DNA of 64,000 bases from Terriglobia bacterium (GTDB taxonomy: Bacteria > Acidobacteriota > Terriglobia > Bryobacterales > Bryobacteraceae): positions 1 through 64,000 of the forward strand of contig JAIQFN010000003.1 of the NCBI GenBank assembly GCA_020073265.1, in the 5' to 3' direction. How positions within the stretch are numbered: the stretch's first letter is position 1; each line of letters opens with the position of its first letter. Under the pieces are notes generated by a model that saw only the letters and a list, made by a program, of their open reading frames with translations, was not told the DNA's origin and made no database searches. Of this stretch, positions 42,366 to 59,719 are shown piece by piece. The translations under genes and the position numbers were made by a program.

Positions 42366-43348
42366 TGGCACACGTCGCGAACTACTCGGCTGAGAAGCTG
42401 ACCGCGGACTCCACCGGAATTGTCCGCCTCACCGACGCCGCGCACCACATCGAGGTTTCGATTTGCCCGTCCATCGGCAACATCGCTTACGACATGCGCG
42501 TCAACGGCAAGCCCATCCTGATGCCGCCGGATGGAACGCTCGCCGAATGGAAGACCAAATCTGCGCAAGCCGGCATCCCCTTCCTCGCCCCTTGGGCCAA
42601 TCGCATGGATCCCGATTCGTTTTGGGCGAACGGCAAACAGTACTTTCTCAATCCGGGCGCGGTCCATCTCCGCCGCGACGCGAACGGCCTGGCAATCCAC
42701 GGCCTGCTCTTGTTCGCATCCGCCTGGCACATCGCCGAAGTGCGCGCCAGTGACGACGGAGCCGAAGCAACCAGCCGTTTGGAATTCTGGAGACACCCGG
42801 AGTGGATGGCGCAATTTCCATTCGCCCACACCATCCAAATGACACACCTGCTCTCCGGCGGCGTGCTCGAAGTCCGCACCAGTATCGAGAACCACTCGCA
42901 TGATCCAATGCCCCTCGCGATCGGCTTCCATCCCTGGTTCCAGATTCCCGACTGCCCTCGCGACGAATGGACCGTGCATCTCGCCGTGCGCGATCACTAC
43001 GCGCTATCGAACAAGCTGGTACCGACCGGAGAAAAGAGTCCAGCGAATCTGCCCGAGGTCATCTCACTGCGCGGCCGCCAGATCGACGACGTCTTCGGCG
43101 GCGTGAACTCGGACGACGAGTTCTGGGTGGAAGCGAAGGGACAACGAGTCTCCGTACGCTTCGGACCCAAGTTTCCCATCGCGATCGCCTACGCGCCCGA
43201 GACCCGAAACGTAGTATGCTTCGAGCCGATGACCGCCATCACCAACGCCTTTAACCTGGCCCACGCCGGCGCGTATCACGATCTCCCGTCCATCGCCCCC
43301 GGCGCAAAATGGACCGACAGTTTCTGGGTCCGCCCCACCGGATTCTAG
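42365..43348 (+). CDS. Aldose-1-epimerase-like protein
   Basis: This 327-residue protein has the galactose-mutarotase beta-sandwich: FLAPWANRM near residue 75, the catalytic-type His in NGLAIHGLL, IGFHPWF, and near the end the Glu-bearing NVVCFEPMTAITNAF. It should interconvert anomers of a free sugar or sugar derivative. GTG 42365 overlaps the upstream stop. No sugar-operon genes flank it, so the substrate is open. Confidence 0.88.
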   Translation: MAHVANYSAEKLTADSTGIVRLTDAAHHIEVSICPSIGNIAYDMRVNGKPILMPPDGTLAEWKTKSAQAGIPFLAPWANRMDPDSFWANGKQYFLNPGAVHLRRDANGLAIHGLLLFASAWHIAEVRASDDGAEATSRLEFWRHPEWMAQFPFAHTIQMTHLLSGGVLEVRTSIENHSHDPMPLAIGFHPWFQIPDCPRDEWTVHLAVRDHYALSNKLVPTGEKSPANLPEVISLRGRQIDDVFGGVNSDDEFWVEAKGQRVSVRFGPKFPIAIAYAPETRNVVCFEPMTAITNAFNLAHAGAYHDLPSIAPGAKWTDSFWVRPTGF

Positions 43349-51767: not shown

Positions 51768-52118
51768 ATGCCTAAGCCGGACGCGTTCCTGCCGCTGAAA
51801 ACCAACTGGTTCCACATTCTGCTCTCGCTCGCGGGTGAGGACCAGCACGGCTACGGCATCATGCAGGAGGTTCTGGACCGCACCGGCGGCAAAGTGCGGT
51901 TGTGGCCGGCCACGCTGTACGGATCGCTGAAGCGGCTGATCGAAGCCGGGCTGATCGAGGAATCCGGCGAGCGCCCGGCGCGAAAATTCGACGATCCGAG
52001 GCGGCGCTATTACCGCCTGACGCGCCTGGGCCGCCGGGTGCTCGACGCCGAGAGCGTACGCCTGCAGGAGCTGGTCCGGATCCTGCAAGTGAAGCGCGGC
52101 CTGGAGGTGTTGGAATGA
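51768..52118 (+). CDS. PadR-family repressor (ADOP-linked)
   Basis: This 116-residue protein has the PadR winged helix (ILLSLAGEDQHGYGIMQEVLD, then LWPATLYGSLKRLIEAGLIEE) and the wing RRRYYRLTRLGRRVLDAES. It is the short PadR-s2-like type. It most likely represses its own transcript, including the permease gene that overlaps its stop by four bases, through the palindrome at 51737-51762. The TATATA box ends seven bases before ATG 51768, so the mRNA is probably leaderless. GTG 51765 and 51761 are less likely. Confidence 0.92.
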   Translation: MPKPDAFLPLKTNWFHILLSLAGEDQHGYGIMQEVLDRTGGKVRLWPATLYGSLKRLIEAGLIEESGERPARKFDDPRRRYYRLTRLGRRVLDAESVRLQELVRILQVKRGLEVLE

Positions 52119-54820
52119 AATCGCTGGCGATGCGGATCTACCGGAGGCTGGCGTGGGCCTTCCCGCACGAGTTTCAGATGGTCTATGGCGCGGACGTGAT
52201 CCAGCTCGGCGAGGACGCCATGGACGACATCTGGGAGCAGCACGGATTCTTCGGGCTGGCGCGGTTGCTGGCCGATATCGCAATGCGCTTGCCGATCGAA
52301 TATCTGTCTGAGATGCGGCGCGACCTGGCGTACGCGCTACGCACGCTGGCGAAGTCGCGCGGATTTGCGGCCGTGGGCGTTCTTTCGCTGGGGATGGGCA
52401 TCGGGATCGCGACGTTTTCGGCTAGCGAATTCTTCAATCTGATTCTTCCGGACGCGCCCGGCGTCAAGGACCCTGGCCGGCTGGCGATCGAGATGGGGAC
52501 ATCTTATCCGTATTTCGAACACTATCGCGATCAGCGCGATTTGTTCGCCGGCGCGGCAGCGTATCAAGGGCCGGTGCCGTTCAACGTCTCGCTCAATTCC
52601 CCGCTGGGAGGGGCGGTGAACAGCAAAGCCGAGCGCGTTTTCGGCCACCTGGTTTCGCCTGAATATTTCTCCGTACTGGGCGTGCGGGCGGCGCGCGGGC
52701 GCACCTTCGACGCGCAAGTGGACAGGCCTGGCTCCGCGCCGGTGGTGTTCATCAGCGACCGGTTCTGGCGGAACCGGATGGATTCGGATCCGGATGCGGT
52801 GGGCCGCGCGATTCAGGTGAACGGGCAGGAAGCGACCATCGTCGGCATCGGGCCCAGGGATTTTCTGGGCGTTACTCCTATCCGGCCCGCCGAGATCTTC
52901 GTGCCGACAACTTCCCCGGCGGCCATGGTACCGGAGCTGGCGGGCGATGTGCTTCACAAGCGCGATGCGAAGTTTTTCGAAGCGCTGTTCCGGCTGGCGC
53001 CGGGAGTGACACTGAAGTCGGCCGAAGCGGGTCTGGACACGATCACGCGGCATTTGGATGAGGAATCGCTGGATCCGGCGCGGAATGTCCAGGGGCGGCG
53101 CGTCACGCTGGTGCCGGGTGGAAAACTGGTGCCGGTGCCGCGGGAAGTGATTCCGCTGATTTTTGGATTGGCGCTGCTGCTGGACGGCTTGATTGTCGGT
53201 ATCGCCTGCATGAACCTGGCGAACATGCAGCTGGCGCGCGCCACCACGCGGCGGCGCGAAGTGGCCATCCGGCTATCGGTGGGCGCGAGCCGCTTCCGGC
53301 TGATCCGGCAGTTGCTGACCGAAAGCGTGCTGTTGGCGTGCGCGGGCGGCGTCGCCGGAATCCTGTGTGCCTATTTGGCGGCCGCGGTATTCAAGAGAAT
53401 CAAGCTGCCGGTGGCTTTTCCGATCACCATCGATCTGACACCGGATTGGCGCGCGGTGCTGTTTACCTGCGCGGTTTCGCTGGCGGCGGGCATCGGGTTT
53501 GGCCTGGCGCCGGCGCTGGCCAGCACGCGAGCCGACCTAGCCTTCATGCTGAAGGAAGGCGCGCTGGCGCAGGTGCGCGGCTACCGCCGGTTCGGAATGC
53601 GCAACCTGCTGATGGTGTCGCAAGTGGCCGGATCCCTGATGCTGCTACTCATCACGGGCTTTCTGATCATCGGATTCGACAAGGGCAACCGCGTCGACAT
53701 CGCATTCGATCCGATGAAGATGTACCTGCTCTCGCTGGACCCGGTTCGGGACGGCTATTCGGCGGAGAAGGCGGCGAATCTTTTCGACAAGCTTCCGGAG
53801 CGGCTGCAGCGCGCGCCGGGTGCGCAGCAAATCGTGCTGGCGGAAGCGCCGCCGTTCAGCCCGCTGATGGCAACTTCCACGCTGGCCGCCCGTTCCGATG
53901 CGGGAGCGCCGGACCAGGTGGTGCAGAAGGTCGCCAAGCAGACCATCGGCGCTGGTTATTTCGCCGCACTGAGCGTGAACATGCTGGAAGGCCGCGAATT
54001 CTCGCCAAGCGATCAGAGAATCGACAGCTCGAAAAACCAGCTGCTGCCGGTGGTGTTGAACGAAACAGCCGCGCGCGAATTTTTCGGAAACCGCGACCCG
54101 CTCGGCCGGCGCATTGCGGAGGGCTCGCGCGCTTACGACGTAGCCGGCGTGGTGAAGGACCTGTCGGCTCCACTGAGCGGGAGTGGCGACACAGCGGAAC
54201 TCACCAGCCAGATCCCGACTGTTTACTTCCCGCTCACCCGGAGCGATTTCGCGCATTCGCCGGTGGGCGGAATGACCGTGATGGTGCGCGCCACGCGAGG
54301 CGCGGACACCCTGGAAGGCGTGCGCCGGGAAATCGCGTCGCTGGATCCGAACCTGGTGATGTTCAATGTCCGGACGCTGGCCGAGCAGGTGGATGAAGCC
54401 ACCGCTGTGATGCACCTGGACACGTTCTTCTATGGGGCGATCGGGAGCTTCGGACTGATTCTGGCGGCGATCGGGCTGGCGGGAGTGACGGCGTACTCGG
54501 TGGCGCGGCGGCGCAAGGAGATCGGGATTCGCATGGCGCTGGGCGCGCGTAAGGGGCAGGTGTTGCGCCTGGTGATGCGGGAGGGGGGAACGCTGGTGAT
54601 GGCCGGAACGTTACTCGGGTTCCTGGGGGCGATCGCAGTCTCACGCGCGCTGGGAGCGGCTAGCAGCATCTTCGGGCCGTCCTTCGCGGCGGGGAGCCGG
54701 GATCCGCGGTTGCTGCTGGGTGCTCCGCTGCTGCTTGGCGCACTGGCGATGCTGGCCTGTTATGTGCCGGCGCGAAGATCGGTGAAGATCGATCCGTTGA
54801 TCGCGTTGCGGGAGGAGTAG
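52115..54820 (+). CDS. ADOP-family permease (duplicated FtsX/MacB)
   Basis: This 901-residue protein has an N-terminal cytoplasmic segment (about 1-70, RIYRRLAWAFPHEFQMVYGAD) typical of PadR-linked ADOPs, then two MacB periplasmic domains and two FtsX blocks (NLANMQLARATTRRREVAIR; IGLAGVTAYSVARRRKEIGI), ending DPLIALREE. ADOP proteins lack an encoded ATPase partner nearby, as here. They may use a distant ATPase or act in efflux or mechanotransmission. Complete length contrasts with the remnant at 197-1060. Coupled to padR by ATGA. Confidence 0.93.
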   Translation: MKSLAMRIYRRLAWAFPHEFQMVYGADVIQLGEDAMDDIWEQHGFFGLARLLADIAMRLPIEYLSEMRRDLAYALRTLAKSRGFAAVGVLSLGMGIGIATFSASEFFNLILPDAPGVKDPGRLAIEMGTSYPYFEHYRDQRDLFAGAAAYQGPVPFNVSLNSPLGGAVNSKAERVFGHLVSPEYFSVLGVRAARGRTFDAQVDRPGSAPVVFISDRFWRNRMDSDPDAVGRAIQVNGQEATIVGIGPRDFLGVTPIRPAEIFVPTTSPAAMVPELAGDVLHKRDAKFFEALFRLAPGVTLKSAEAGLDTITRHLDEESLDPARNVQGRRVTLVPGGKLVPVPREVIPLIFGLALLLDGLIVGIACMNLANMQLARATTRRREVAIRLSVGASRFRLIRQLLTESVLLACAGGVAGILCAYLAAAVFKRIKLPVAFPITIDLTPDWRAVLFTCAVSLAAGIGFGLAPALASTRADLAFMLKEGALAQVRGYRRFGMRNLLMVSQVAGSLMLLLITGFLIIGFDKGNRVDIAFDPMKMYLLSLDPVRDGYSAEKAANLFDKLPERLQRAPGAQQIVLAEAPPFSPLMATSTLAARSDAGAPDQVVQKVAKQTIGAGYFAALSVNMLEGREFSPSDQRIDSSKNQLLPVVLNETAAREFFGNRDPLGRRIAEGSRAYDVAGVVKDLSAPLSGSGDTAELTSQIPTVYFPLTRSDFAHSPVGGMTVMVRATRGADTLEGVRREIASLDPNLVMFNVRTLAEQVDEATAVMHLDTFFYGAIGSFGLILAAIGLAGVTAYSVARRRKEIGIRMALGARKGQVLRLVMREGGTLVMAGTLLGFLGAIAVSRALGAASSIFGPSFAAGSRDPRLLLGAPLLLGALAMLACYVPARRSVKIDPLIALREE

Positions 54821-54831
54821 TGGAGCGTTGA

Positions 54832-54872
54832 GCCGGCTAAAGCCGGCTGCAGGCAGGATTGCCTGCCCCACT
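54832..54872. repeat. Dispersed twin-hairpin repeat (GCCGGC family), copy 1
   Basis: 41 bases with two stems, GCCGGCT-AA-AGCCGGC and GCAGGC-AGGATT-GCCTGC. The partner at 58261-58301 differs at exactly two positions that pair with each other. It provides the last codons and stop of the gene at 54837-55742. Confidence 0.8.
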
Positions 54873-55742
54873 GTGCCGCTTGCGGGCCGCGGTTGCGAGC
54901 CAGTACATAACCGGGCCGGCGATGGCTAAGAGCCACGGCGGCTTCTGCCAGATGGGATGGAACCAAGGCCGGCTTTGGGTCACCAGCGCGACCCACCAGA
55001 TTCCCTGCATGGCTGCGAGCACGGCCATGCTTCCTAGCGCGAGGACCCAGAGGATCATTCGTAAGGGGAGTGAGAGCCGGTGGCTGCGGGCGCCTTTGTA
55101 CATTCCTAGCAGGGATGGCAAAAGAACCAGGATGATTTGTACTAGCACCGGGAACAGCACCCGGTAAAGCGTCAGCGAAGATACCGGGTCCGGGCCGGTG
55201 TTGCGCGGGTGGAAACCGAGCGTCATGAAATGAACCTGTAGCCGCATGTACTGCGGGGCTGCCACGAGCGCCCCGAACAGCAGCACCAGGCAAAACAAAA
55301 CTCCGTTGACAGGAATGGTGCGGCGCGACAGGTCTCCGAGCGTGAAGCCGATCGCCCATGACAGGCAAATCAGCGCCAGGATGTCCGGGAAGACCAGGAC
55401 GATGGTCTGGGCGAGAACAATCCAGAATGCGCGATGTTGCAGGAGGGACCAGTCCCAGTTGTTGAAGTACATCCAGGAATAAACGGAGTTCATGCTGGCG
55501 ACGTGATTGGAGAGCAGACTTAGCAGCAGGCCGAGGGGGACCACCAGCCCGGCGAGAATCAGCCATGGCCGCCAGTTGTGCCACGGTGCCATCTGGCGAC
55601 GGGCTACCAGGCCCAGCACATCGCGCAGCGCTTGCGGACCGGTCTGCTGCGACTCGGCAAAATCGCCGCGCACGATGTCGCGCTCGCCGGGCTCCAACGC
55701 CCGGGACACAATGTCGACCAGCTTCCAGCAGATCCGGTTCAT
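54837..55742 (-). CDS. Multi-spanning membrane protein, PadR-linked
   Basis: This 301-residue protein has an N-terminal cytoplasmic part (LVDIVSRALEPGERDIVRGD) then about six membrane helices between residues 58 and 285 (LILAGLVVPLGLLLSLLSN, IVLAQTIVLVFPDILALICL, VLFPVLVQIILVLLPSLLG). No catalytic motif is seen. The last ten residues (GAGNPACSRL) are encoded by the dispersed repeat at 54832-54872. Its ATG overlaps the padR stop upstream by four bases, so the regulator probably controls it. Confidence 0.78.
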   Translation of the reverse strand: MNRICWKLVDIVSRALEPGERDIVRGDFAESQQTGPQALRDVLGLVARRQMAPWHNWRPWLILAGLVVPLGLLLSLLSNHVASMNSVYSWMYFNNWDWSLLQHRAFWIVLAQTIVLVFPDILALICLSWAIGFTLGDLSRRTIPVNGVLFCLVLLFGALVAAPQYMRLQVHFMTLGFHPRNTGPDPVSSLTLYRVLFPVLVQIILVLLPSLLGMYKGARSHRLSLPLRMILWVLALGSMAVLAAMQGIWWVALVTQSRPWFHPIWQKPPWLLAIAGPVMYWLATAARKRHSGAGNPACSRL

Positions 55743-56080
55743 GGCTGTGTGCCTACGCGGTTGGATGCCCAGGAGACGCCGCGGCTGGCTCGCATCACGG
55801 CAGCATGAAAATCGCGCGCCGCGCGGACGCCCTTGGCCGTTACGCGCACCATGCGTTTGGGGCGGCCGCCTCGTTGCGGGGTAGGGTCGCCCATCCAGGT
55901 CCGGACCAGCCCCTTGGTCTCGAGGCGATCCAGGGTGGTATAGAGCGCGCCGATGGAGCAACGGCCCCTGGTGGCGTCCTCGATCTCCTGCCGGATGGCG
56001 GCGCCGTAAGCGTCTTCGCCGAGCTGCGCGGCCGCGGTGAGCAACAGGTATTCGAACTCGCCCAGCATGATTACTATCAC
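55739..56080 (-). CDS. PadR-family repressor
   Basis: This 113-residue PadR winged helix contains MLGEFEYLLLTAAAQLGEDA, IEDATRGRCSIGALYTTLDR and GGRPKRMVRVTAKGVRAARD. On this strand TAGAAT (56092-56087) ends six bases before GTG 56080, so a leaderless start there is favoured; ATG 56068 is the alternative. A perfect palindrome ATCACA-T-TGTGAT (56076-56088) spans the start. The gene is followed by the coupled membrane protein at 54837-55742, probably its target. Confidence 0.9.
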   Translation of the reverse strand: MIVIMLGEFEYLLLTAAAQLGEDAYGAAIRQEIEDATRGRCSIGALYTTLDRLETKGLVRTWMGDPTPQRGGRPKRMVRVTAKGVRAARDFHAAVMRASRGVSWASNRVGTQP

Positions 56081-56088
56081 ATTGTGAT
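56076..56088. promoter_or_regulatory. Perfect 13-bp palindrome at the padR start
   Basis: ATCACA T TGTGAT is a perfect inverted repeat between the -10 box (56092-56087) and the GTG of the minus-strand padR. It is a probable autoregulatory operator. Confidence 0.55.
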
Positions 56089-56186
56089 TCTAATGGCGGG
56101 CGGTGTCAAGCCCCTACCCCGCGGTCGCGGAAAGCATGGCAACGATGTAACATTAGGATGTCTAGAGCGCGCCGTATCATCTAACT

Positions 56187-56801
56187 ATGAGGCTTGGTCC
56201 GCTGCTGTTCCTGCTCACCGTTGCGGGGCTGCAGGCACAAATCATCGACTTCGAGTCGAACGGGATGCACTACAAGACCCTGACCAAGGGGCGCGTCACG
56301 GTGATGTTCGCTTATCTGCCCGCGCATCTGAAAGAATATTCGATCCTGCAGGTTTCGATTTCCAACGGATCGCCGGTCGCGTGGACGGTGAAGCCGGAGG
56401 ATTTCAGCTACCGGCGGCAGGACGGCGGCGTTGCGCAAGCCTCGCCCGCCCTTTCGGTGGTGTACACGCTGCTGGCCAAGGCGGGCCGGCGCGATGTGAT
56501 CAAGCTGGTGACCACGTACGAGGATGGCATCTACGGCAACATTAATATGCACACCACCAACGGCTATGAAACGCGGCGGCAAAGCGCGCTGGCCGATGGG
56601 GTGTCGACGAAGCTGAAGGCCGGGGCAGCGGCATCGGCGATCGCGCTGATCCCCACCAAGCTGGCGTCGGGCGAGTCCACCGACGGGGCGGTGTTTTTTC
56701 CCAGCACCGGGAAACCGTTCGGTCCCGGGACGGTGGTGGTCCACACGGGCGGCGAGATTTTCGAATTTCCGACCGAGGGCGAACCGGTCACGTCCAGGTA
56801 G
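56187..56801 (+). CDS. Secreted protein of unknown function
   Basis: This 204-residue protein has a signal peptide (LGPLLFLLTVAGLQAQ) and a beta-rich domain (YLPAHLKEYSILQVSISNGSP, VAWTVKPEDFSYRRQDG) and resembles small acidobacterial exported proteins. The C-terminus contains SSTD-like and GPGTVVVHTGGEIFEFP segments. TATCAT (56175-56180) ends six bases before ATG 56187 with no ribosome site. No function can be assigned. Confidence 0.7.
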   Translation: MRLGPLLFLLTVAGLQAQIIDFESNGMHYKTLTKGRVTVMFAYLPAHLKEYSILQVSISNGSPVAWTVKPEDFSYRRQDGGVAQASPALSVVYTLLAKAGRRDVIKLVTTYEDGIYGNINMHTTNGYETRRQSALADGVSTKLKAGAAASAIALIPTKLASGESTDGAVFFPSTGKPFGPGTVVVHTGGEIFEFPTEGEPVTSR

Positions 56802-56807
56802 GAGCTG

Positions 56808-57683
56808 TCAAGCTGAGGCGGACTCGGACGCTTCGCGCGATGACAGACAGAAATCCGCGCCGTGCAGCCAGCAGGTGTCGCCGGGTTCGTGTGTGTCCCG
56901 GCGCAGGGACTTTAGCGCGGGCGGTTTTCCGGTGCTGATCTGCTTGAGGATTTTCGCGTTCAGCTCGGGGTCGCGAAGGCTAGTACACGAGTAGATCATC
57001 ACGTAGCCGACAAAGCTCGCGGTGAAGTTCGCGCCAGTGCGACGAACCAGGATCATGAAGCCTTTGCCGGCGCCATCGCCGGTGGTGAACGTCAGCGGGA
57101 ACAACAGGCGGCCGCCGTCCGCGAGCCGATCGAACCAGAGCGCCGACGGATGGGTCACACCGGCGTTGATGAACGCGACGTCGACGGGGCCCGGGTCGAA
57201 CGCGCCGCCATCGCCCGCGAAGACTTCGACATTGTTCCAGGGCGCGAGGTTGTCGCGGGCGCGCGCCGCGAGATTTTCGTCCACTTCGGCGGCTTCGACA
57301 TGACCGCGAGAGCCGGCCAATTCGGCCATGATCGCGGTGTAGTATCCGGTGCCGCAGCCCAGATGGAACACGCGATCGCCTTCCGCGATTTCCACAGCGT
57401 CGATCCAGGTTGCCAGCGTGCTGGGATGGCCGTTGTTGAGATTGCGCTCGGCGTCGATGGAAATCAGGATGTTGTGATACAGGCGCCGCGGATCGGCGTC
57501 CTCGCTGGTGCGGTAGGATGACGTGGCGGTAAGCATGTCGGCGCGCGCGATGCGCCAGGGGCCGGGAGGAAAGAAGCGCTCGCGGGGAACGCTGGCGAAT
57601 GCGTCCGCCAGCGCGGCAGACTTAAGACCGGCCACCGCGGCGATCTCTTCGGCGTAAAAGCGCCGGTGTTCTTCGAGCGTCAT
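56808..57683 (-). CDS. Protein-L-isoaspartate methyltransferase-like protein
   Basis: This 291-residue protein has a PCMT-like methyltransferase core: VPRERFFPPG, VFHLGCGTGYYTAIMAELAG (SAM site) and VEAAEVDENLA, with a GGRLLFPLT strand. An extra C-terminal part of about 90 residues includes MIYSCTSLRDPELNAK. It may repair isoaspartyl residues or be a related methyltransferase. It lies three bases after the PadR gene upstream on the same strand and is probably under its control, an odd pairing. Confidence 0.82.
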   Translation of the reverse strand: MTLEEHRRFYAEEIAAVAGLKSAALADAFASVPRERFFPPGPWRIARADMLTATSSYRTSEDADPRRLYHNILISIDAERNLNNGHPSTLATWIDAVEIAEGDRVFHLGCGTGYYTAIMAELAGSRGHVEAAEVDENLAARARDNLAPWNNVEVFAGDGGAFDPGPVDVAFINAGVTHPSALWFDRLADGGRLLFPLTFTTGDGAGKGFMILVRRTGANFTASFVGYVMIYSCTSLRDPELNAKILKQISTGKPPALKSLRRDTHEPGDTCWLHGADFCLSSREASESASA

Positions 57684-57686
57684 GGC

Positions 57687-58223
57687 TCAGAGAGCTTCCA
57701 GTTCGCGGCGCGCGCGCTCCAGGATCTCTTCGACGCGCCGTCTGTGTTCGGGATCGCCGCCGCTGTGCTTCATGGCGCGGAAGGCGGACTTGAGCAACGC
57801 GCCGAGCGGTCCAGAGATCATCGCGACGCCGGGACCCATCCATTGTCCCCAGTCGCCCCATTGCGAGGCGCGCCGCCAGATTTCGTCGGCGGTGGCGCGC
57901 TCGCGCTCCAGCTCTTTCTTGCCGAGATCGGTGAGCTGATAAACGCGGCGGCCGTCCTTCTGCTCGGAGACGATCATGCCTTCGTCTTCCAGTTGCGCGA
58001 GCGCCGGATACATGGTGCCGGCGCTGACTTTGTAAATGCCGCCGGAGCGGGCTTCGAGCACCTTCATCAGTTCGTAGCCGTGCTTTGGGCCTTCGGAGAT
58101 AAGGGAGAGGATCGCGATGCGGACCTCGCCGGCTTCGAAGAATCGGCCGCGCCTGGCCCACGGCGCGTAACCCCAAGCGCCACCACCACCTGGGGCGTTG
58201 CATCCCCAGGAATACCTGTTCAT
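57687..58223 (-). CDS. PadR-family regulator with C-terminal helical tail
   Basis: This 178-residue protein has a Gly-rich and aromatic head (SWGCNAPGGGGAWGYAPWAR), then the PadR core (ILSLISEGPKHGYELMKVLE, SAGTMYPALAQLEDEGMIV, RRVYQLTDLGKKELE) and a dimerisation tail. AGGAGG lies before ATG 58223. GATATATC at 58238-58245, a self-complementary octamer, may be part of its operator. The PCMT-like gene follows after three bases. Confidence 0.88.
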   Translation of the reverse strand: MNRYSWGCNAPGGGGAWGYAPWARRGRFFEAGEVRIAILSLISEGPKHGYELMKVLEARSGGIYKVSAGTMYPALAQLEDEGMIVSEQKDGRRVYQLTDLGKKELERERATADEIWRRASQWGDWGQWMGPGVAMISGPLGALLKSAFRAMKHSGGDPEHRRRVEEILERARRELEAL

Positions 58224-58260
58224 TGCGGCCTCCTTAAGATATATCGGGCGAAGGCAAGAG

Positions 58261-58301
58261 GCCGGCTAAAGCCGGCTGCAGCCAGGATTGGCTGCCCCAC
58301 T
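58261..58301. repeat. Dispersed twin-hairpin repeat (GCCGGC family), copy 2
   Basis: 41 bases, with stems GCCGGCT-AA-AGCCGGC and GCAGCC-AGGATT-GGCTGC. It touches the stop codon of the VOC gene (58300-58302) and lies 38 bases upstream of the padR start. The partner is 54832-54872. Confidence 0.8.
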
Positions 58302-59331
58302 AAGGGACGCAGATTTCGCCGAGCTTGCCTGCGCCGCCGCAATAGGTGGTGTCCTGGATCTGAAGCAGGATGCCATCGGGATCGGTGAAGTAGAGTTCGG
58401 GTGTGCCGTCGGGCGCGCCGCCGCGATTGGGCATGCGCAGGGTGATGTAGGAGACGAGCGGGCCGGCGGGTCCACGCGCGTCCGAGGGTCGCGGCTTGAT
58501 GCCGTACGATTCCAGCGCCTTCATGACCTTGTCGGTTTCGAAGCCGCGCATGCGGAAACTGGCGTGATTGATGCTGGGCATCGGGCCGGGCCCGCGGCCA
58601 CCGCCGCCAGCGATGGTGAGGAACGGGCCGCCTGGGCCGACCGCGAGCAGAGGCGTGGGACCCTGGTGCGCTTCCACCGGCATCGCGAACACGGACTGAT
58701 AAAATTCGAACGCGCGCGCCGAGTCGGAAACGAAAATCGTGAAGTGACTGATGTCCTCCATTGCGAGTACGCCTTTGCCCGGAGCCGGCTCAGGTTTGGC
58801 CAGGCAAACTTCACCCATCTTGCCTGCACCGCCGCAATAGCTGACATCCTGGATCTGCATCAGGATTCCGTCCGGATCGCTGACGTACAGCTCCGGCGTT
58901 CCATCTTTCGCGCCGCCGTTCTCAGGTCCACGCATGCGGACGCGAACCTTCATCGGCTCCTTGGTGTCGCCCTTCTCGATTCCGTGCTCGGCCAGCGTGG
59001 CAATGACGCGATCCACATTGAAATTCTCGGTCGTCACGCACCAGTGATTGAAGCCCGGCTTGCCGCCCGCCGCGACTTTGCTTAGGAAGATGAACTGCGG
59101 TCCGGAGCCGATTCGCAAAGATGGTAAGGGACCCTGGCGCGCCTGAATCGGCATGCCGAAGAGTCCCTGGTAAAACTCCAGCGACCGCTGGGGATCGGTG
59201 ACGCTGAGCGTCATGTGGCTGAAGCCCTTGACGGGGATGGTTGGCTTGGTCGATTGCCCCAGCGCTCGAGATGCCAGGCCCGCGGCCGGAAGTGAAAGCA
59301 GCAGACTGCGGCGCGAAATCGCGTGTTCCAT
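58300..59331 (-). CDS. Tat-like exported protein with two VOC domains
   Basis: This 343-residue protein has a twin-Arg type start (SRRSLLLSLPAAGLASRALG), then two glyoxalase/VOC modules: GFSHMTLSVTDPQRSLEFYQ and ISHFTIFVSDSARAFEFYQ, each ending with LYVSDPDGILMQIQD or LYFTDPDGILLQIQD. Each half holds His and Glu positions for a metal. It could be a dioxygenase, glyoxalase or binding protein. ATG 59331 is chosen because the longer frame lacks a signal peptide. The YjbR gene ends two bases upstream. Confidence 0.87.
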   Translation of the reverse strand: MEHAISRRSLLLSLPAAGLASRALGQSTKPTIPVKGFSHMTLSVTDPQRSLEFYQGLFGMPIQARQGPLPSLRIGSGPQFIFLSKVAAGGKPGFNHWCVTTENFNVDRVIATLAEHGIEKGDTKEPMKVRVRMRGPENGGAKDGTPELYVSDPDGILMQIQDVSYCGGAGKMGEVCLAKPEPAPGKGVLAMEDISHFTIFVSDSARAFEFYQSVFAMPVEAHQGPTPLLAVGPGGPFLTIAGGGGRGPGPMPSINHASFRMRGFETDKVMKALESYGIKPRPSDARGPAGPLVSYITLRMPNRGGAPDGTPELYFTDPDGILLQIQDTTYCGGAGKLGEICVP

Positions 59332-59332
59332 G

Positions 59333-59719
59333 TCAGTCGAGTCTATCACGGCGCGACTGCAATTTTTTCGGCGCAACCATTTTCCAGGCTTGCAGAATGT
59401 GGGCGGCCAGCTGGTCGTCGCCGATGCGATCCAGCTCGATGCCGACCCAGCCGCTGGGGCCGACGTAAGGTGGCCGGTAGTAGGTCTCGGGAGCTTCGTG
59501 GACCAGCGCCTCTTGCAATCCTGGCGGCGCGGGCACCCAGACGGCGACATGCCCATCGCGGTGGTGATCGCCGGCGAACATGGCGAATACGCGCTTGCCG
59601 CCGGCGAAGAAGGTCGGCTCGCCGTGCGAGAGTTTTTCAAGCGTCTCGGGCAAGGCCATGCAAATCCGCCGCACGCGACGGACGTGCTGCGGGATCAGGT
59701 CAGACCTGGATTTCTTCAT
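59333..59719 (-). CDS. MmcQ/YjbR-family protein
   Basis: This 128-residue protein has [34 protein letters not shown] and [13 protein letters not shown], the typical profile of the MmcQ/YjbR family (about 120 residues, fold with CyaY-like features). The biochemical role is unknown, possibly DNA- or metal-binding. ATG 59719 overlaps the stop of the kinase gene upstream by four bases (ATGA). Confidence 0.86.

Follow-up and report, generated by a model that had tools for sequence, protein, structure and literature searches.

A short repeat that occurs twice in a 64,000-nt stretch of acidobacterial DNA (the window, by which we mean the whole stretch analyzed) folds into two adjacent hairpins and, at one of its two sites, also encodes the end of a protein. 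What kind of element keeps such a structure? A preliminary description of the window proposed that the structure is selected probably as RNA, as a terminator or processing signal. Here, we find that the repeat, very probably, is a minute piece of mobile DNA propagated by a transposase encoded elsewhere in the genome, and we hold with high confidence that it is a REP of a RAYT-driven system, with two tandem hairpins per unit. Its copy number, its covarying structure, a RAYT gene flanked by copies, the co-occurrence and co-divergence of RAYT and repeat, head-to-head doublets, and placement at gene 3′ ends were all observed directly. The window lies on contig 17 of a 6.41-Mb genome in 131 contigs (G000).

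Two copies of a twin-hairpin repeat at gene ends

The two 41-nt copies (54832 to 54872 and 58261 to 58301) are identical at 39 of 41 positions, and differ only at positions 22 (G/C) and 31 (C/G). As the preliminary description stated, these positions lie opposite each other within the second stem, making the C-G/G-C swap compensatory. Within a 40-nt core, stem 1 is formed by positions 1 to 7 with 10 to 16, and stem 2 by positions 18 to 24 with 29 to 35. Computed single-strand folds of both copies contain two adjacent hairpins on either strand, whether calculated as DNA (-15.9 kcal/mol; z -4.5 to -5.1) or as RNA, for which the fold is stable at about -24 kcal/mol. The innermost pair of stem 1 is open in the computed fold. 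Read on the minus strand, the unit has the layout 5′-GTGG-N-hairpin A-1 nt-hairpin B-3′ (Table 1). The covarying pair, 54853 and 54862, is within hairpin A of copy 1; hairpin B of the same copy has seven possible pairs, of which the outer six form in the computed fold.

Table 1. Features of the two repeat copies and of the adjoining genes in the window
Feature	Position	Strand	Remarks
Probable twin-hairpin REP, copy 1	54832..54871	-	Minus-strand order 5′ GTGG-hairpin A-hairpin B 3′
Hairpin A, copy 1	54849..54866	-	7-bp stem 54849-54855/54860-54866, 4-nt loop
Hairpin B, copy 1	54832..54847	-	Stem 54832-54838/54841-54847
GTGG foot, copy 1	54868..54871	-	1 nt from hairpin A; place of the GT[AG]G of known REPs (PMC6006769, excerpt)
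Probable twin-hairpin REP, copy 2	58261..58300	-	GTGG foot 58297-58300
Membrane-protein gene	54837..55742	-	Last 11 codons (with junction codon) and stop made by copy 1
MacB/FtsX-type permease gene	52115..54820	+	Convergent neighbor; stop 11 bp from copy 1
Glyoxalase-like two-domain gene	58300..59349	-	Ends at copy 2
PadR-like regulator gene	57687..58223	-	Start faces hairpin B of copy 2 across a 37-bp gap

Both copies contribute to the stop codon of a neighboring gene. In copy 1, the minus-strand TAG at the stem–loop junction of hairpin B (54839-54837) is the stop of the membrane-protein gene, whose product ends ...RKRH-SGAGNPACSRL-stop. Ten residues and the stop are encoded entirely by the 40-bp core, whose boundary cuts through an 11th codon; the earlier assignment of the last ten residues and stop to the repeat was right to within one residue. 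In copy 2, the GTGG foot and the TAG stop of the glyoxalase-like gene share a single base, the G of GTGG. Homologs of these neighbors in other genomes were compared, through protein-level alignments to homologs on other contigs only. The membrane-protein homologs of G001 and G002 (about 33% identity) end with other residues, ESKGEER, after the equivalent site. The permease homologs of G001, G002, and G004 stop at the same residue, and the 150 nt behind their stop contain no such repeat. The glyoxalase-like homolog of G004 stops one codon earlier, and is likewise followed by 150 nt with no such repeat. These empty sites are consistent with insertion of the window copies since divergence. No tRNA is present within the window. 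A direct repeat at 58309-58423 and 58804-58918 (77% identical) corresponds to the tandem glyoxalase-like domains of one gene.

A dispersed family with a selected structure

A BLAST search with one copy found 42 places in G000, and a 16-mer from one half of the repeat gave 138 matches with at most one mismatch, compared with 1 for a reversed control. A covariance model built from 54 copies returned at least 150 matches in this genome, all with E<=3.1e-5. This figure is a lower bound on the number of copies, and the copies studied here are the best-scoring 150. Both hairpins are recognizable in 54 of 56 seed copies, a count that leans to complete units because about half of the seeds came from whole-repeat searches. 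The other two seeds, one fragment-like and one with an altered stem 1, lack a recognizable stem 1 and were left out of the seed alignment, A1. The CCCCAC end of the unit is sharp, its last six bases being present in 142 of 150 copies, and the bases beyond it vary. The search for a target consensus ahead of GTGG found nothing beyond an A/T excess at the two bases next to it (102 and 99 of 150).

The structure of the repeat is under selection. Among the 150 best-scoring copies, which were gathered by a structure-aware model, 2031 of 2100 stem cells pair and 69 are unpaired. The preliminary description would have given way had further copies broken the pairing as often as they kept it; none of the 150 breaks the covarying pair. 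This pair, the fifth of stem 2, is C-G in 106 copies, G-C in 44, and anything else in 0. Pair 3 of the same stem is A-T in 99 copies, G-C in 44, and of other kinds in 7 (2 of these G-T), and pair 5 of stem 1 is G-C in 116, C-G in 27, and other or broken in 7. For alignment A1 (54 rows, 34 distinct), copies were seeded on one arm of each stem (the 3′ arm in stem 2, the 5′ arm in stem 1), with the partner arms not selected, and 97.9% of the cells in A1 pair. In it, 29 cells are changed on both sides, compared with 9.0 in shuffles, and the covariation score is 0.196, compared with 0.072 when shuffled; 0 of 500 shuffles reached either value. Alignments with slid partners contained at most 2 cells changed on both sides. 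Two of the five covariation measures applied to A1 were unremarkable, namely the number of both-side-change pairs (4, reached by 19 of 500 shuffles) and of further pair types (8, reached by 250 of 500). Covariation is also expected if a transposase recognizes the hairpins as single-stranded DNA; base changes would be kept mostly together with a change of the partner because the folded strand is what is recognized.

The 150 copies fall into 131 clusters, of which 112 are single and 19 are pairs. The pairs comprise 16 head-to-head doublets with 6 to 37 nt between the copies, 2 tail-to-tail doublets, and 1 tandem; the head-to-head class is REPIN-like in layout, REPINs being defined by inversion, short spacing, and replication as one unit. 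Fourteen of these 16 doublets (15 counting one printed in a shifted register) join two types of stem 1 arm, GCCGGCT with either GCCGCCT or GTCGCCT, and in 11 of the 16 the loop CGAT is present in exactly one arm. Such arm-type swaps keep each hairpin and should weaken pairing between the arms. Heterodimers with arms of two types are described for other REP families in an excerpt of PMC3733652. Since both pair forms are common in the family and most head-to-head doublets join different arms, the C-G/G-C swap between the window copies looks like two standing family forms rather than an isolated event.

A RAYT gene between two inverted copies

Three Y1_Tnp matches were found in G000. One of them (C86:42743-42967, minus strand) is in an ORF of 182 residues from ATG. 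Two copies of the repeat in inverted orientation flank this ORF (C86:42637-42676 and 43253-43292), and its TAA stop (C86:42668-42670; L015:1532-1534) is at the stem–loop junction of hairpin B of the downstream copy. The NCBIfam model REP_Tyr_transpos (NF047646) scores 69.5 bits on this protein, below a cut-off of 80 that is a database threshold and not a biological definition, and the same model matches 21 of 21 aligned clade members at E<=0.001. Of the 24 close RAYTs, 21 entered the alignment used with the structure; the three omitted were a sequence with a stop, a near-duplicate, and a truncated sequence. An HUH motif, NHVH, and the tyrosine are invariant in all 21, and the tyrosine motif YIEQNP has the class 2 form Y---NP. 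With a query that began one codon after the ATG, the best PDB match by sequence was 4er8, TnpArep (E 0.0016). The AlphaFold model of the RAYT (pLDDT 85.7; pTM 0.84) had the same entry, a RAYT bound to a REP hairpin, as its top Foldseek match (E 1.6e-9; TM 0.63/0.68), with about 18% identity to this E. coli protein in the structural alignment. The protein carries the HUH and Y---NP motifs, and the gene the flanking inverted copies, that are among the defining features of a RAYT or REPtron; a RAYT would also bind and cleave single-stranded REP DNA. The two other Y1_Tnp genes of G000 were considered as drivers and rejected, as neither has a flanking copy beyond chance: L062 has no model match beside it, and L061 has matches at chance level only (E 1.1 and 2.5).

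RAYT and repeat occur and diverge together

A close RAYT (E<1e-40, a cut set after a gap in the list was seen) is present in 15 of 41 genomes, and 20 contain a RAYT match at E<=1e-5. The repeat is found at E<=0.01 in 15 genomes, 13 of them shared with the close RAYT. It is thus present in 13 of the 15 genomes with a close RAYT, compared with 2 of the 26 others (G009 and G017, both with weak matches; Fisher p 5e-7, kinship ignored). Match counts range from at least 150 in G024 through 60 in G003, 36 in G010, 16 in G001, and 14 in G002 to under 10 in most others, and only 6 of the 13 genomes with both RAYT and repeat exceed 10 matches. In G012 and G032, the two genomes with a close RAYT and no match to the repeat, twin hairpins of a different sequence lie next to the RAYT. 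The G012 twin is dispersed (38 matches, compared with 0 for a reversed control), and the G032 twin is less clearly so (43 compared with 10, 5 palindromic sites entering the count once per strand).

A twin hairpin with a GT[AG]G foot, in the expected orientation, lies beside 20 of 24 close RAYT loci, and on both sides of 8 of them. By comparison, it is beside 0 of 7 distant RAYTs, and was found in 4/2000 and 13/2000 control windows. Twins in the unexpected orientation are present beside 4 of the 24 close RAYTs. Twins at related RAYTs keep the foot and differ in their other letters, diverging with the RAYT: over the 20 loci with a twin (L123 and L137 being near-duplicates), RAYT identity correlates with REP similarity at a Mantel r of 0.68, reached by 0 of 5000 permutations. 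Among 80 named GTDB loci, with phylum labels that we assigned from record titles, a twin is present at 13 of the 27 acidobacterial loci, at 3 of the 12 from Chloroflexota, and at none of the 41 remaining ones (control 4/1300); at 14 of the 27 acidobacterial loci the scan found no twin. These 14 include the closest named RAYT, L365 from a Bryobacterales MAG (68% identity). The named loci partly overlap the loci from the 41 genomes (the twins at L368 and L372 have the sequences of those at L136 and L137), and the two scans are therefore not independent. The flanked RAYT, the co-divergence of RAYT and repeat, and their matching distribution together point to recognition of the repeat by the transposase.

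In the mechanism that we infer, the GTGG-hairpin strand, in single-stranded form, would be bound by the C86 RAYT and cut alongside, copies would spread either one at a time or as REPIN-like doublets in head-to-head order, and the family would be mobile at present. Copies are for the most part located shortly behind the ends of genes, where hairpin B or the G of GTGG can form part of the stop codon of the neighbor.

The GTGG end often abuts stop codons

Genes were called with a codon-bias caller made for this analysis. Of the 131 clusters, 127 were placed between genes, 3 are inside genes, and 1 is at a contig edge; some of the others overlap the last codons of a gene. For 112 of the 127, a gene 3′ end is no more than 50 bp away. 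Convergent gaps hold 58 of the 127, compared with 15 of 119 background gene pairs drawn from the window and three 20-kb stretches.

Placement is oriented with respect to the stop codon. Of 150 copies, 67 have a stop codon at -1 to +5 nt from the GTGG end and 11 have one equally near the other end; the counts are 65 and 11 for genes with a score of at least 30, and 58 and 7 for those with a score of at least 60. Among single scorable copies, no more than 5 nt separate the stop from the GTGG end in 51 of 72, compared with 19.1 expected under uniform placement, and from the other end in 11 of 57, compared with 16.1 expected. This test omitted gaps below -1 (keeping 72 of 84 and 57 of 67), and the 150-copy count was filtered only beyond -12. 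In tandem gaps, the GTGG side is toward the 3′ end in 37 of 57 (p 0.03), and the median distance to the stop is 1 nt on the GTGG side versus 21.5 nt on the other (n 37 and 20; p 7e-6). The asymmetry is mild in convergent gaps, where the GTGG side is nearer in 29 of 47 and the other side in 17 (Wilcoxon p 0.03). The stop codon consists of TA and the G of GTGG in 15 copies, and is supplied by hairpin B, turned toward the gene end, in 8, that of the RAYT gene included.

The tendency is also present in the congener G003, with 5 of 12 GTGG ends near a stop compared with 0.7 expected, and 0 of 20 compared with 1.3 on the other side (30 of 51 matches sampled; 3 internal and 1 edge copy dropped, 26 used). 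It is absent from the more distant G024, with 2 of 23 compared with 1.0 expected (54 of 58 listed places, from at least 150; 4 near contig starts were omitted, and 39 were used once 15 doublets had been removed). Thus, stop abutment is seen in this genus and not wherever the element occurs, and a general stop-codon rule for the element was rejected.

Oriented abutment of the GTGG end was unexpected. A tentative extension, which we consider possible but doubtful, is that the twin-hairpin REP has become a stop-codon-linked 3′ module in this genus. Copies would be inserted or kept in one orientation, with GTGG directly behind the stop and often completing a TAG, and a mobile element would supply ready-made mRNA ends to many genes. 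This could come about if the RAYT machinery detects gene ends that are being transcribed or translated, or if strand-specific selection on the RNA retains such copies.

Alternative origins and roles of the repeat

Several of these observations would also be expected of an RNA element kept for transcription termination or mRNA 3′-end processing and dispersed by other means, the view taken in the preliminary description: most clusters are close behind genes, convergent gaps are enriched, stop-codon abutment is oriented, and the RNA fold is stable. An intrinsic terminator, however, should combine a hairpin with a T-run, and at least 5 T in the 9 nt behind either end are present in only 10 and 13 of 150 copies. 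No terminator-like site was called at either window copy, and an Rfam search of 54500-58700 at E<=5 gave three weak matches, none on the repeats. Termination as the primary explanation is thus unsupported, and an RNA element would leave the flanked RAYT, its co-occurrence with the repeat, and the head-to-head doublets unexplained; we consider a primarily RNA-level origin very unlikely. A MITE of another transposase is less probable still. The inverted ends of head-to-head doublets, GTGGGGC...GCCCCAC, could serve as its terminal inverted repeats, but 112 of 131 clusters are single, and of the three Y1 transposase genes the RAYT alone is flanked, in a comparison that covers the Y1 family only.

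The repeat may have a secondary role in mRNA. Many copies in this genus, REPs in origin, may have been co-opted as mRNA 3′-end modules (stop, short spacer, two hairpins) that control mRNA stability or ribosome stalling, a proposal that would add to the RAYT-REP reading rather than replace it. The excess of GTGG ends near stops in G000, its counterpart in G003, and the deficit at the other end agree with such a role, and ribosomes are said to stall at E. coli REPs that lie 15 nt or less from a stop (cited in PMC12306157, excerpt). Yet only 446 of 4,072 E. coli REPs are that close to a stop (same excerpt), G024 shows no tendency, and insertion preference or loss of harmful insertions could give part of the pattern. 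On balance, we regard co-option as conceivable and somewhat improbable.

Relation to known REP/RAYT systems

The RAYT-driven REP that we favor is ordinary in kind. The REP definition in PMC6006769, which also covers subclasses, places GTAG or GTGG 0 to 2 nt 5′ of a hairpin with a 7- to 20-bp stem and a 2- to 5-nt loop; here, GTGG is followed after 1 nt by a 7-bp stem with a 4-nt loop. The family is also numerous and mostly extragenic, with 3 of 131 clusters inside genes. In excerpts of earlier work, inverted REPs headed by GT(A/G)G lie on both sides of RAYT genes, coevolve with RAYTs, and occur close behind the rayt stop (PMC2817692), and a RAYT recognizes its REP as a single strand in which the foot has a role (PMC8266576). 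Like the REP/RAYT (TnpA-REP) systems of Gammaproteobacteria (E. coli, Stenotrophomonas, Pseudomonas), the present one places a hairpin next to a GT[AG]G foot, flanks a Y1 HUH transposase gene with two inverted copies, comprises more than 100 dispersed copies, keeps its palindromes while their letters change, and shows co-divergence of RAYT and REP. Unlike those systems, in which the unit is one hairpin, sometimes bulged, it combines two hairpins in tandem in each unit. This departs from typical REPs but is no published ground for exclusion, since PMC3733652 mentions "double palindromic" repeats. The doublets resemble REPINs (PMC3116915) and other head-to-head REP dimers in their inversion, short spacers, and two arm types; unlike REPINs, they are a minority.

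The closest published hint of the twin form that we found is in the TIRYT/TIRtron group, compared here by description and not by sequence. According to an excerpt of PMC3733652, TIRtrons are Y1 genes, some in an acidobacterial TIRYT group, with inverted flanking repeats (TIRs), some of which are double palindromes and some dispersed; the same source describes REPs that encode the ends of reading frames. Most TIRs are called unrelated to REPs by its authors, but the repeat described here does have a GT[AG]G foot. Class 3 TnpA-Y1 of Solibacter usitatus, from the same phylum, likewise combines Y1 genes with dispersed hairpins (about 600 copies; PMC6006769, excerpt). Its tyrosine motif is Y----Q and its foot CnGA, unlike the class 2 motif and GTGG foot described here, and identity with this element was rejected. 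Among open-access titles and the starts of abstracts, a scope that excludes subscription literature and leaves absence unproven, we found none on twin-hairpin REPs in Bryobacterales or on oriented stop abutment. The twin form is only hinted at in the published work consulted, and the oriented stop abutment is the odd feature of the system.

A twin-hairpin REP would here be tied to its own RAYT clade in Acidobacteria. The 20 RAYT-REP loci share an architecture without sharing sequence, and could show how a transposase reads hairpins. The oriented stop abutment in this genus makes the long-standing question of whether REPs are parasites or 3′-end signals directly testable.

Further hairpin repeats were noted during the searches. 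On C79, two or more copies of another hairpin repeat, GCCCGCCACTTCAGTGGCGGG, surround a Y1_Tnp gene with a 233-aa open frame (L061, about 1390-2400). The G012-type hairpin GTGGCGCACGCTTCAGCGTGC has 7 matches with up to 2 mismatches in G000, on C8, C32, C127, C5, C81, and C38; these are possibly relics of a second REP family. At the G024 loci L274-L325, the sequence shared by several copies extends further ahead of GTGG (variants of CGGCTCCGCCGCTYT and AGTATGCACTTGACT); the mobile unit may be larger there, or may lie inside another repeat.
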